A DNA stretch of 34,184 nt, from the NCBI GenBank assembly GCA_913063055.1, contig CAJXZK010000025.1:1-34184 (forward strand), read 5' to 3'. Under the pieces are notes generated by a model that was not told where the DNA came from, ran no database searches, and saw only the letters and a program-made list of their open reading frames with translations. The stretch is from an uncultured bacterium (GTDB taxonomy: Bacteria; Cyanobacteriota; Vampirovibrionia; Obscuribacterales; Obscuribacteraceae). Positions 14,847 through 34,184 of this stretch are shown piece after piece. The translations under genes and the position numbers were made by a program. Position 1 is the stretch's first letter. The number at the start of each line of letters is the position of its first letter.

Positions 14847-16424
14847 TTAATCACAACAGGCCTGCACCTTCGCCAGCCTCTCGGCGTCAGCCATTTTGGC
14901 AACGACATCGGCATTTTTGACTAGCTTGAGTGCTGCGCGATATTCCACCACAGCTCCTCGATAATCTTTTGCAGAGAGACAAAGCTGAGCCTGATTGAGA
15001 TGACTAGCAGCGCTTTCATCTATATGGAGATTGAACATACAGCTAGAAATGTTCTTAGCATAAACTACTTGCTCGCCATCAAAATAACTGGCCCACCGAA
15101 AATATTTGAGAGCTTGCAACGGCTCAGAAATCTTACTCAAACCCATGTTATTCAGTTCGCAAGCCATAAGCATTCGCCCGTTTTTATTGCTGCTATCAAT
15201 TTTCAGAACTTGCTCAAAGTACTCCAAGGCCTTAGCAGTATCATTATTTGCTTTAGCTTTGCTGGCTTCCGCAAAAAGCAATTGAATTTTACCTTTATCG
15301 GTTAAATCGGAAGATTCAGTGCTGATAGCGGCACCACCAATTTCATAGAGCTTATACAAAGTGGCCACATCACGCGAAGTAATACCACGCTGATTAGAGA
15401 GAGCAGGAAACATCACATCTTCTTCGTAGGGGCTATGCCCAGTTAGGCCGAGAGCATGACCAATTTCATGCACGGCAATCATGCGCATAAAGTCTTTCGT
15501 CATTAGCTGATCAGGAAAGGGCGATATGGTCAGAAGCAGCACATCGGCTTTGTTAACGCCGTCCATATTTCCTGTCAGCTGAGCTTTTCCAGCTTCAGCT
15601 CGCAATGCTGGCGCATGCAAATCATCAACAAAATTGACAGTTATATCAGCTTGATCAGCAGAATCTACAATCTTCAAACCAATCTGACCGAGTGTAGCTT
15701 TATCCCAGTCATCAATTGACTGACGGACGGCTTCCTCATATTCCGGCCTATACGACTTTATGGCATCAGCGCCAGCGATGTAAACACGCAAGGGAAAGCG
15801 CTTGATTGGCCAGCGGAAAAGCCCCTCAGAAACAGCATCTTTAAAATAATCGCCCGCACCACCAGTGGTGACTACATATTGATTTGGCTTAGCCTTAGCA
15901 GCATTTACTTGCGAGCGAATAACCCCGGCCAAAGCCACATACTGCTCGCGTTCATCACTCTTAGGAGCAACTTGCAGATAGGAATCGTAACAGGACAAAC
16001 ACTTGTCTAAATGGCCAGTACGATGATAGACCTTCGCACAAACAAGCCAAGCTGTAAGTGGCATGGTCGCCGAACCAGGCTTAACGCCAGACTCAGAAGC
16101 AGGCGGCGCTACTAAAGCAAGCATCCGATTGACTTGATCAAGGGCGGCATAGGCTTTGTTCTGAGCCAGCAAAGCACTGGCAAGACCAGACAAAGCAAGC
16201 GGCGATTGAGGGTAAGCTTTAACTGCACCTCTATACACCTCTTCTGCCGCCTTGGCTTGCCCTTGTAAGAGCAACTGCTCACCCTGCTGGCAGGCTACCG
16301 CAGCAGCATCGCTCTCTACTTTCTTAGCCGAGGCCGCCCAAGACGAATCAGAGAGCAAGGAAAGAGTAACAGCAGTAGCCCAAGCAAACTGCCTAAATCT
16401 ATTAGATAGAGTTCGCGCTACCAC
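14847..16424 (-). CDS. Secreted TPR protein with internal matrixin-type (M10-like) zinc metalloprotease domain
   Basis: 'HEIGHALGLTGHSPYEEDVMFP' = HExxHxxGxxH plus Met-turn-like segment; TPR-like helices on both sides; N-terminal signal. Confidence 0.85.
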   Translation of the reverse strand: MVARTLSNRFRQFAWATAVTLSLLSDSSWAASAKKVESDAAAVACQQGEQLLLQGQAKAAEEVYRGAVKAYPQSPLALSGLASALLAQNKAYAALDQVNRMLALVAPPASESGVKPGSATMPLTAWLVCAKVYHRTGHLDKCLSCYDSYLQVAPKSDEREQYVALAGVIRSQVNAAKAKPNQYVVTTGGAGDYFKDAVSEGLFRWPIKRFPLRVYIAGADAIKSYRPEYEEAVRQSIDDWDKATLGQIGLKIVDSADQADITVNFVDDLHAPALRAEAGKAQLTGNMDGVNKADVLLLTISPFPDQLMTKDFMRMIAVHEIGHALGLTGHSPYEEDVMFPALSNQRGITSRDVATLYKLYEIGGAAISTESSDLTDKGKIQLLFAEASKAKANNDTAKALEYFEQVLKIDSSNKNGRMLMACELNNMGLSKISEPLQALKYFRWASYFDGEQVVYAKNISSCMFNLHIDESAASHLNQAQLCLSAKDYRGAVVEYRAALKLVKNADVVAKMADAERLAKVQACCD

Positions 16425-22333: not shown

Positions 22334-22495
22334 GTGCACAAACTGCCAACCAAACCTTCGGCATTCCTAACCACATCTTTATGCCTGACAATCGCTTACT
22401 GTGCTACCGGCGCTGAAACAATAGGCGTCTCGCCAGCAGTTGCCGCACCGGCAAAAAAAAGATTTTGCACCTTACATGAAACTGGTACAAAATAA
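22334..22495 (+). other. Short frame encoding a signal peptide that runs into the A8 tract, out of frame with the downstream TonB_C/TPR ORF
   Basis: GTG at 22334: MHKLPTKPSAFLTTSLCLTIAYCATGAETIGVSPAVAAPAKKRFCTLHETGTK*; deleting one A of 22453-22460 gives ...APAKKDFAPYMKLVQNKIKW.... Confidence 0.65.
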
Positions 22496-23576
22496 AATCA
22501 AGTGGACGCCCCCAGCCAAAACCACTGTCAATAGCGTTGCCGTGACTTTCACTGTAGGAAAGACTGGCACAATAAGTGCAGTGAAGGTAAAAGAACCAAC
22601 AGCAGATCCAGCCGTAGACCAACTGGCAATTGCAACCATTCAAAAAGCAGCACCATTTCCGCCACTGCCTGCTGGTGAAACATCATTGGAAATTACTTTT
22701 ACTCTGCCCTGCCAACGGGGTGTCACTGCCAATGGCGTGGATTTAAACCCTTACAGCAACGAAGTTTTCAAACGCATTCATGCCGCTTGGTGGGTGCCAA
22801 AGCGGCTTTTGTTTATGCAAGTCGGCCTCAGTTATGAAATCAACAAAGACGGTAGCCTGGGAAAAGTCTCAATTGACAAATCCTCCGGCGACAAAAATGC
22901 CGATCGCTTAGCTGTAATTGGGGTCAAGAGAGCGGCACCATTCAAGCCATTACCTGAAGGAGTCGAGGCTCCTCTCAAGCTAAGTTTTAACGCCGGCTTC
23001 AAAGACGAACACGACAAAAACTTCTATATTTGGAACGGCGAACGCTTTAACATGGGCCAATCATATACAACCGCTGGTGGCACTGAAGTTGGACACAGAG
23101 ACAACACCACCGAAAAAGACAAAGCATTTCACTTGCGCAAAGAAGAAGCCTTGATCAAAATGGCTGACCTCGATGAGCAAATCGAAAAAGAAAGCAAAAC
23201 AAACCCAGACAGCATCAAACTAGTGCCTCTGCTTGTTCAGTACGCCGGCCAAGACCGGCTGATAGAAGAACATAGCGACGCCCTCGCCAAACTAAAGCAA
23301 GCTCTCGCCATCGCTAGAAAAAATCCAGCAGGGAATGAAAAAGAACTGGCCCAAAGTCTATGCGCACTAGCAACCGTTGAATATAACCTCGGCCACGTAC
23401 AAGAGGCAGAGCCACTGCTTAAAGAAGCGATAGAAATCAAAGAAAATGTTCTAAAAAGCAAAGACAAAGAACTAAAAGATTTGCTAGAGACATACGGTCG
23501 CATGCTTTATAAACAGGGTCGAGTGAAAGAATACGAAGAAGTAAGTAAGAAAGCTAGAGAAATTACGACCATCTAA
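22440..23576 (+). CDS. Two tandem TonB_C-like domains plus TPR protein (true N-terminus probably in the frame starting at 22334)
   Basis: 'IKWTPPAKTTVNSVAVTFTVGKTGTISAVKVKEPTADPAVDQLAIATIQKAAPFPPLP' and 'WWVPKRLLFMQVGLSYEINKDGSLGKVSIDKSSGDKNADRLAVIGVKRAAPFKPLP'; C-terminal 'AQSLCALATVEYNLGHVQEAEPLLKEAIEIKENV'. Confidence 0.8.
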   Translation: MPHRQKKDFAPYMKLVQNKIKWTPPAKTTVNSVAVTFTVGKTGTISAVKVKEPTADPAVDQLAIATIQKAAPFPPLPAGETSLEITFTLPCQRGVTANGVDLNPYSNEVFKRIHAAWWVPKRLLFMQVGLSYEINKDGSLGKVSIDKSSGDKNADRLAVIGVKRAAPFKPLPEGVEAPLKLSFNAGFKDEHDKNFYIWNGERFNMGQSYTTAGGTEVGHRDNTTEKDKAFHLRKEEALIKMADLDEQIEKESKTNPDSIKLVPLLVQYAGQDRLIEEHSDALAKLKQALAIARKNPAGNEKELAQSLCALATVEYNLGHVQEAEPLLKEAIEIKENVLKSKDKELKDLLETYGRMLYKQGRVKEYEEVSKKAREITTI

Positions 23577-31397: not shown

Positions 31398-33626
31398 TCA
31401 ATGTCCATTTAACTTCTTCTCTATTTGATAATCTTTTTCGGCTAGATCATACCGACCCGATCTACCGTATACCCACGATCGCAGCCCGTAGGAAGAAGCC
31501 TTGGGCTCGAGTTTTATCAAGGCATTGCAGTCGGCTAAGGCTTGTGGAAACTTCTTTAAATTCGCAAATGCCACCGCTCTACCGAAAGTACAGTCGCCAG
31601 ACAATTCACTATCCAAAGCCATCGCCTTAGTAAAACTTCCTATGGCCCTTTGGTCCTCCTTGCGCGCGAGATAAAAATGTCCTTCGCGACGCAGGCTCTG
31701 AGCAGATTCCGAGCCTGTCTCGTTCGGTTCAAGAATGATTCGTCTGGATGGATAGTCGAAGGTAACAGTTTTGAACCGACTAAGAAAGTCATTGCCTAAA
31801 ATAATCCCTGATGCCGCCAACGGGGCCTCTCCCGCTGGATAGACATCGAAGATGGGCGCTTCAAAATTACCAACACCTACACTCACAGTCTTGAGCCGAA
31901 CACTTTCGCTGCTCAATTCACCAAGCCAAGGACCAGATATTTTCTCTTTATAGTTTAGTTTTCTAGGCAAAATAGGCTGCAATAGAGAGTCTGCCGACAT
32001 ACTAAAAGGACAACCTGTATCTAGTAGTGCACTAACTTCCAATTTTCCGTCAAGCCTAACTCTGCAGTGCGGATGGTGTTCATGTATTGTCATAGGCAGG
32101 ACAACTGTATTCTTTGATTTATTTTGCTCGAAAGAATTTGCCAATATTACTTGCTTATTTCGGTAGTCCACTGTCACCACAAAATTCTCTAAGATGTTGC
32201 CACCCAGAAATCCGCTTATAGTCCTATGACCAACAAGTCCATCATCGACATTCATGGCCACATTTGATAGGGTCAAGTCACCGAGTTTTAAATCTCTAGC
32301 TCGAAAGGTAGCATAGTTATACTCATTTCCATTAGCACTGGTGCCTCGCAACCGAGTTTTATTTATTTCGGCGACTCCAGGCATAGCTTGCTTCCAAATA
32401 TCTGAGTGCCCGCACCCCGTATCAAGCATTAACCGCAAAGAATTTCCGTTTACCTGCGCTGGCACGTAAAAATGGCCACCTGTATCGTAGTCAAAGGGCA
32501 GCACAACAGGCCTGCTTCTGATCTGATCAGCGATTCGGTCTTGAGGCCTTCTCTCAACGGCTGAAAGCTTGTTGAAATCAATCAAGGGGCTGCAACCTTG
32601 CATGCGAAGTCGTTCTCCAGGCCTGGCAAGCTCGTTGGCTTTCCGCCAATCAGCTATAGCCAGCTCGTGCTTCCCAAGCCGCTCATACACTTTCGCTCGT
32701 GCATTCCAACTGTATGCATCTTTCGTATCGAGCCCTAAAATCTTCGTTCGCAGCTCAAGCGCCTTGTCGTAGGAACCAAGTTCTTCGTACGAGTCGGCGG
32801 CAGTGAAACAAGCAGCTCCGGAATTCGGATCTAACTTCATGGCAGTGCGGCAATCGGCTATGGCATTTTGCAATTGCCCGAGTCGATAATACACGGAACC
32901 ACGCTGTTCATAAGTCTTTGCCGAACGGGGATCAATATGAGCGGCTGCTGTCAGATCCAAAATCTGCTTTTGATACTGACCCAGGTGCTGGTACATATGG
33001 GCACGCCTTAAATAGATCGATGCCTGTGGAGCGACTTTGATGGCAGCCGTGTAGTCTGCCACTGCTTTCTCATACTTATTTTGACCACCGTAGGCGTGCC
33101 CGCGTTCGATGTAAGGTTCTGCCTTTGAAGTTAGCCTCAATGCTTTATTGCAGTCATTGATGGCATTCTGGTACTGCTCCAAATTTCTATAGGCAGTAGC
33201 CCGATATAAATAGTATCTGTAATTCTTCGAATCTAGCGCGATCGCCTTGCTGCACTCTTCAATTTCTCTGCGGTAACTTTCAAGCCCCTCATAAGCCAAG
33301 CCTCTCAGCGCAAAAGCTAACGCCAATCTTGGTTGCAACGAGATGGCCTTGGTACTGTCATTAAGTGCATCATGATAGCGCTGAGTTCCTACATAAATTC
33401 CCGCCCTGTTGGCGTAGGCTAGAGCATTCTTCGGCTGTTTCTTAATCAGCGTATTTAAGCAAGCTAGTGCAGCATCAGTCTTATGCTGCTCAAGCAAAGC
33501 TTGGGCTTCCTTCAAGAGATCAGTCGACGGGGCAGCTGCTGCAATGTTCGGCTGTGAAAGCGCAAAGACTACAACTACGGCGAGATGCGTCGCTTTGGTC
33601 AAAATGTGATTTTCAAACCGCAGCAT
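31398..33626 (-). CDS. TPR protein with two retropepsin-like aspartic protease domains and C-terminal TPRs
   Basis: N-terminal signal and many TPRs; 'LRLMLDTGCGHSD' ... 'ISGFLGGNILENFVVTVDY' and 'VSALLDTGCPFSMS' ... 'ASGIILGNDFLSRFKTVTFDYPSRRIIL'; then TPR again. Confidence 0.88.
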   Translation of the reverse strand: MLRFENHILTKATHLAVVVVFALSQPNIAAAAPSTDLLKEAQALLEQHKTDAALACLNTLIKKQPKNALAYANRAGIYVGTQRYHDALNDSTKAISLQPRLALAFALRGLAYEGLESYRREIEECSKAIALDSKNYRYYLYRATAYRNLEQYQNAINDCNKALRLTSKAEPYIERGHAYGGQNKYEKAVADYTAAIKVAPQASIYLRRAHMYQHLGQYQKQILDLTAAAHIDPRSAKTYEQRGSVYYRLGQLQNAIADCRTAMKLDPNSGAACFTAADSYEELGSYDKALELRTKILGLDTKDAYSWNARAKVYERLGKHELAIADWRKANELARPGERLRMQGCSPLIDFNKLSAVERRPQDRIADQIRSRPVVLPFDYDTGGHFYVPAQVNGNSLRLMLDTGCGHSDIWKQAMPGVAEINKTRLRGTSANGNEYNYATFRARDLKLGDLTLSNVAMNVDDGLVGHRTISGFLGGNILENFVVTVDYRNKQVILANSFEQNKSKNTVVLPMTIHEHHPHCRVRLDGKLEVSALLDTGCPFSMSADSLLQPILPRKLNYKEKISGPWLGELSSESVRLKTVSVGVGNFEAPIFDVYPAGEAPLAASGIILGNDFLSRFKTVTFDYPSRRIILEPNETGSESAQSLRREGHFYLARKEDQRAIGSFTKAMALDSELSGDCTFGRAVAFANLKKFPQALADCNALIKLEPKASSYGLRSWVYGRSGRYDLAEKDYQIEKKLNGH

Positions 33627-33695: not shown

Positions 33696-34127
33696 ATGCA
33701 AACAGAACCAGAAAAAAAAGTACCAAAGATGTTTGGCTTGCGCTACCACCAGCTAGTTGCAATTCTCTTGAGCCTAATCGCCTCAACACAACTGTATTCA
33801 TGGATAAATCCAATCAACATTGGAGAGCAAGACATAAGACCGTATCTTTGCCTGTTCATAGCCCTTCTTGGTCCAGCTTATTGCCTTATCTACAAAAAGG
33901 AAGCAATAGACTTAAAATCGATATGGTCACGCAAGTGGAAAGTTCGCTGTGATTCCGAGGAAGTGATGAGTTCACAAAGAAAGCCTGTCAGACTAATAGC
34001 CGCTGCGTCACTTACAGTAACAGCAACTATCTGCTCTATCATTTTTCTCCAGCAGCGCCAAAACTGGTCATTTGGCCAAACTCCAGAAGACGTTATACCA
34101 AACTCAAAACCGGCATCAGAGTATTTC
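33696..34127 (+). CDS. Hypothetical membrane protein, C-terminus truncated at contig end
   Basis: Three hydrophobic segments; last genuine codons before adapter sequence at 34128. ORF-track end at 34169 is artefactual. Confidence 0.65.
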
Positions 34128-34184
34128 CTGTCTCTTATACACATCTCCGAGCCCACGAGACCGTACTAGATCTCGTATGCCGTC
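34128..34184 (+). other. Illumina Nextera adapter read-through (mosaic end, i7 adapter, index CGTACTAG, partial P7)
   Basis: CTGTCTCTTATACACATCT + CCGAGCCCACGAGAC + CGTACTAG + ATCTCGTATGCCGTC matches the Nextera transposase/i7 adapter layout. Confidence 0.99.

Follow-up and report, generated by a model that had tools for sequence, protein, structure and literature searches.

Gene and Domain Organization

The window analyzed here is the whole stretch of 34,184 nucleotides that makes up contig C25 of a 5.7 Mb host genome from an uncultured bacterium related to cyanobacteria; the named relatives of this genome are metagenome-assembled genomes of Ca. Obscuribacterales/Melainabacteria. On its minus strand, the ORF list and the translation gave an ORF of 742 aa with an ATG start, spanning exactly the interval in the first line of Table 1. 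The first 32 residues had a basic n-region, a hydrophobic core and an Ala-rich end. The N-terminal TPR solenoid consisted of 18 helices and one capping helix according to DSSP of the AlphaFold2 (AF2) model, and was separated from the first of two retropepsin-like lobes by a linker. In total, the full-length model contained 12 TPRs.

Table 1. Features of the TPR-enclosed double-DTG gene.
Feature	Residues	Position in window	Strand	Evidence
Complete gene: signal peptide, 9 TPRs, lobe 1, lobe 2, 3 TPRs	1–742	31398..33626	-	ORF, Pfam, full-length AF2 model
Probable signal peptide	1–32	33531..33626	-	Sequence inspection by eye; orthologs L118, L119 and L121 start alike
N-terminal TPR solenoid, ~9 TPRs	34–345	32592..33527	-	Pfam PF00515/PF07719/PF13181; DSSP of AF2 model
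Cys345, end of capping helix ahead of lobe 1	345	32592..32594	-	Ortholog alignment columns
Lobe 1, retropepsin-like domain	372–497	32136..32513	-	PF13650, 38.4 bits alone (above cut-off); AF2
Active-site motif 1, D402-T403-G404-C405	402–405	32412..32423	-	Translation; D402 and G404 invariant, n = 49
Lobe 1 hydrophobic-hydrophobic-Gly motif, FLG	473–475	32202..32210	-	G475 invariant, n = 49
Lobe 2, retropepsin-like domain	508–634	31725..32105	-	PF13650, 21.5 bits alone (slightly under the 24.3 cut-off); 25% identity to lobe 1; AF2
Active-site motif 2, D536-T537-G538-C539	536–539	32010..32021	-	Translation; D536 and G538 invariant, n = 49
Lobe 2 hydrophobic-hydrophobic-Gly motif, ILG	609–611	31794..31802	-	G611 invariant, n = 49
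C-terminal TPRs, 6 helices = 3 TPRs	642–740	31407..31703	-	DSSP of AF2 model; TPR matches

The first-pass annotation, made from the sequence, had described two DTG domains between TPR arrays, each DTG followed by a hydrophobic-Gly element, and both parts of this description were borne out by the ORF, its translation and Pfam. TPRs flanked the protease domains on both sides (PF00515, 127.8 bits, E = 5e-38, seven stretches, above the curated cut-off), and Asp_protease_2 (PF13650) was matched twice, with 51.2 bits for the whole protein against a cut-off of 24.3 (E = 2e-13). Asp402 lay in LDTGCGHSD and Asp536 in LDTGCPFSM; their downstream partner motifs were GFLGGNILENF (G472/G475) in lobe 1 and GIILGNDFLSRF (G611) in lobe 2. 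Aligned with each other, the lobes showed 25% identity over 130 aa (E = 0.002). The pattern [LIVMF]2-D[TS]G[ACST] occurred at two places only when all six reading frames were scanned (68,364 codons in the window), both within this ORF; since the strict motif was absent elsewhere, the DTG pair is not a chance occurrence.

Elsewhere in the window, a second protein with TPR–protease–TPR order was encoded at 14847–16424 on the minus strand (525 aa, with a probable signal peptide). Between its TPRs lay a matrixin-type metalloprotease domain (PF00413, E = 3e-10) whose zinc site, HEIGHALGLTGH at residue 319, was complete. That a zinc metalloprotease and an aspartic protease should both be TPR-enclosed points to a general means of directing exported proteases. 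On the plus strand, 22440–23576 encoded a protein with TPRs after a TonB C-terminal domain (PF13103/PF03544). The contig end at about 34129–34184 was sequencing adapter (CTGTCTCTTATACACATCTCCGAGCCCACGAGAC ... ATCTCGTATGCCGTC), and the plus-strand ORF at 33696–34169 consequently has an artificial LSLIHISEPTRPY end.

Predicted Structure

Retropepsins normally carry one DTG lobe per chain and are homodimeric, and the two DTG domains of this chain had been suggested to form an intramolecular pseudo-dimer instead. AF2 was run on the two lobes with an alignment of 49 tandem domains from public contigs, and gave a bilobal model with a mean pLDDT of 90.2 and a pTM of 0.89. The full-length model (710 aa, signal peptide removed) had a pLDDT of 93.2 and a pTM of 0.90, which implies that the TPR coils, too, are placed in a definite way with respect to the protease.

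The top Foldseek match of the two-lobe model against the PDB was 9iy9 (TM 0.69 over 293 columns), followed by penicillopepsin, plasmepsin, renin and endothiapepsin (TM 0.55–0.64 over 330–360 columns). The rmsd to the pepsins was large (6–9 Å). As a single lobe, about half of the query, would cap the TM score at ~0.5, values of 0.55–0.69 indicate that both lobes lie roughly in the pepsin arrangement. When the full-length model was compared with the PDB, only TPR proteins and 9iy9 were matched and no solved TPR–protease composite was found. The confident bilobal model, with its end-to-end match to pepsins and to 9iy9, supports the predicted product as a single-chain pseudo-dimer in which both lobes form one unit; a model with the two domains far apart and their active sites incomplete, which would have counted against it, was not obtained.

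Conservation and Distribution

Across 49 aligned homologues both motifs were invariant or nearly so, and the two Asp and the two Gly residues of the DTG motifs were strictly invariant. The spacing between the two Asp residues stayed within 132–149 residues in the tandem pairs tabulated. Compared with the nearest ortholog, dN/dS was 0.15 for the whole gene and 0.095 for the protease part, values that are rough because dS exceeded 1, near saturation, in this comparison. They indicate purifying selection on the gene, with the strongest constraint in the protease region.

Of the 60 related genomes searched, 37 had a double-domain match; almost every genome of the same family had one, but few outside the family did. 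True orthologs, defined by E < 1e-30 and a matching architecture (with L125 as a TPR-poor exception), were present in 9 of 50 family genomes. The host genome itself encoded two more long double-DTG proteins on contigs C30 and C7, carrying TPRs or a LolA-like N-terminal part, as well as short ones of ~400–440 aa on contigs C298, C84, C32 and C130. Three short double-DTG proteins of ~430 aa stood in a row on the small contig C298 (L010, L011, L013, L016, L017, L020). In the double-lobe paralogue L082, an 817-aa reading frame, the first site was DTA rather than DTG, and this protein is possibly half-dead. Beyond the order, tandem DTG pairs were detected in Bacteroidota, Gammaproteobacteria and Krumholzibacteriota; judged by these sequences, a single chain with tandem DTG lobes is a common bacterial arrangement and not unique to the ORF at 31398–33626.

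Two orthologs, L127 (genome G070) and L128 (genome G064), were near-identical together with their flanks, though the genomes are assigned to different genera; this would reflect either a recent transfer or a mis-binned contig. A conserved operon or linked system was rejected, as the flanks were shared only with the nearest ortholog, and there only in part. Because the neighbouring genes were not conserved, they suggested no partner or substrate.

The Residue Following the DTG Motif

Cys405 and Cys539 occupy the position held by Ala in retropepsins and by Ser or Thr in pepsins. Retroviral-type enzymes characteristically have Ala after DTG, and pepsins have Ser or Thr (PMC12239564); the post-DTG position in the second pepsin lobe has been linked to the pH optimum (PMC2761423). 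In the tandem pairs from public genomes, this residue was Ala in 46 of 51 at each site. Among the nine orthologs, Cys was found in eight at site 1 and in six at site 2, the exceptions (site 1/site 2) being L121 with Ser/Ala, L124 with Cys/Ser and L125 with Cys/Ala. In a tree of 42 tandem domains, the protein fell into a 7-row clade with an SH-aLRT of 100, which L125 joined at 92; outside these, Ala after DTG was the rule.

On the evidence of these sequences, DTGA is ancestral and DTGC a derived mark of the ortholog clade, mostly but not strictly kept. The conservation of DTGC at both sites, to which the first-pass annotation had drawn attention, thus holds for most of the ortholog clade but not for the three exceptions, nor for the wider set of tandem pairs. 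Given the post-DTG counts and the tree, the idea that DTGC is an old redox element kept ever since was rejected. The enzyme does not require Cys, as L121 has DTGS/DTGA; in the product of the present ORF, Cys after DTG may act like Ser. Among the papers searched, none dealt with DTGC in aspartic proteases of bacteria.

Origin of the Two Lobes

A tree built from individual lobes separated the long-type lobe 1 sequences from the long-type lobe 2 sequences, and both lobes of the short same-genome proteins clustered together with full support. Forcing all lobe 1 sequences together gave a p-AU of 0.003 with distant long-branch rows and of 0.034 without them. One ancestral lobe duplication for all tandem proteins is therefore disfavoured, although not firmly. 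At least two separate lobe duplications would be the simplest reading, with the short double-DTG paralogues of the host genome appearing to have had their own, a reading that is tentative because the lobes span only ~140 columns and the branches are long.

The two lobes of pepsins retain no sequence resemblance to each other beyond the active-site motifs. Those of the present protein are still alike (25% identity), and more than one duplication is suggested within one bacterial order, so that these proteins may offer natural intermediates for testing how a dimeric protease becomes single-chain. It is a long-standing question whether duplication and fusion turned a retropepsin-like dimer into pepsin or whether evolution ran the other way (PMC2761423, PMC2642776).

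Proposed Function and Alternative Explanations

From the gene, its domains and motifs, their conservation and the bilobal model, all obtained from sequence and computation, we infer that the product is probably an exported single-chain aspartic endopeptidase whose two lobes share one pepsin-like cleft between TPR coils. A tandem duplication would have given two retropepsin-like lobes, which fold onto each other to make the cleft, and Asp402 and Asp536 would be the catalytic pair that activates a water molecule. The TPR coils (nine N-terminal and three C-terminal) would pack in a defined position around the protease core and most likely bind a substrate protein or a cell-envelope partner, so that cleavage would be steered to few targets. 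Cys405 and Cys539 would probably tune the site and not be required. We propose that it acts in the cell envelope as an exported endopeptidase guided by the TPR coils. An analogy may be offered by Pseudomonas, whose secreted retropepsins with a single lobe cut Glu-rich sequences and have roles in osmotic stress and biofilm formation (PMC12239564).

The loss of one site in paralogue L082 means that part of the family may lack protease activity. For the present protein it is unlikely that the pepsin-like fold is a catalytically dead bilobal scaffold, a TPR-presented peptide-binding module that does not cut, with parallels in plant basic 7S globulins and pregnancy-associated glycoproteins. Foldseek also matched two pepsin homologues that are inactive, basic 7S globulin and conglutin gamma, L082 lacks one DTG, and small loops beside the motif are variable. 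Nevertheless, both Asp and both Gly residues did not vary in 49 sequences and selection was strongest in the protease part, whereas dead homologues usually lose an Asp, as noted for pregnancy-associated glycoproteins (PMC2761423). It is harder still to believe that the lobes are two separate retropepsins, working only as inter-chain dimers, with one chain inactive alone. The single-lobe relatives RloA and APRick do act as dimers (PMC12239564); against this, the two-lobe model forms one confident unit (pTM 0.89) that matches single-chain pepsins from one end to the other, and the order and spacing of the lobes do not change across the family.

A redox-gated protease, in which disulfides involving Cys405 and Cys539, possibly with the linker Cys345, would shut the cleft or open it, develops the earlier suggestion of redox control at the DTGC sites and is an improbable alternative. 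Cys345 was present in the same eight of nine orthologs as Cys405, both being missing in L121, and DTGC is retained in most of the clade. Cys521 also occurred in eight of nine orthologs, in a pattern unlike that of Cys345/Cys405. The identical pattern of Cys345 and Cys405 reflects a single loss event, however, and this co-occurrence, one event in nine sequences, is only a lead. In L121, where the sites read DTGS/DTGA, the remainder of the enzyme is intact; site 2 is without Cys in L124 and L125, and the site can hold Cys, Ser or Ala, all of them small residues. The shared pattern is a hint of redox control, but the idea is weakened by the Cys being non-essential and is still speculation. We give very little credence to its fuller form, a redox-gated, TPR-presented pepsin analogue that arose from bacterial retropepsins by its own lobe duplication, separate from those behind pepsin and the short tandem proteases of the same genome, and in which Cys345 can lock Cys405.

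Comparison With Known Proteases

The nearest known structure is 9iy9, a putative endopeptidase of B. fragilis ('Exported protein'), which likewise has two retropepsin-like lobes in one exported chain and was the best match both by structure and by PDB profile (E = 4.5e-10). The two proteins share 16% sequence identity over the structural alignment. Unlike the present product, 9iy9 has 420 aa with no TPR domain annotated, and its sites are DTGA in lobe 1 and DTGN in lobe 2, compared with DTGC at both here. Similarly, the tandem proteins L106, L109, L094, L112 and L102 from Bacteroidota, Gammaproteobacteria and Krumholzibacteriota have two DTG lobes 130–150 residues apart in one probably exported chain; they differ in having DTGA instead of DTGC and no detected TPRs, and L102 has a PDZ domain C-terminal to the lobes. 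Among the papers searched, none dealt with tandem PF13650 proteins that have TPRs, and none described 9iy9.

Each lobe has the D[ST]G and hydrophobic-hydrophobic-Gly combination of clan AA, and shares its fold and motifs with the single-lobe retropepsins APRick (5c9d; profile match E = 3.5e-6), RloA/RimB and TIGR02281. For TIGR02281 the scores of 28.7 bits (full protein) and 33.4 bits (lobes) were below the cut-off of 57.95. The single-lobe enzymes have one lobe per chain and are dimeric when active (PMC12239564), whereas here there are two. The protein is also set apart from retropepsin family A2 by two homologous lobes per chain modelled as one unit, and by Cys at both sites instead of Ala after DTG (PMC12239564).

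The predicted arrangement resembles that of pepsin family A1 (penicillopepsin, plasmepsin, renin), in which a single chain has two lobes with one catalytic Asp each. It differs from this family in size (~265 aa compared with ~325 for pepsin), in lobes that are still 25% alike, and in its flanking TPRs. PF00026 was absent from the 25 Pfam matches listed for the protein (last E = 0.07); a relative, L063, scored 19.8 bits against the PF00026 cut-off of 19.9. The enzyme is thus predicted to work in a pepsin-like manner, yet by sequence it lies outside A1 and by lobe number outside A2. The bilobal bacterial form is already known through the crystal structure of 9iy9; new features are TPRs that encase the lobes from either side, DTGC at both sites and lobes that appear to have been duplicated more than once.
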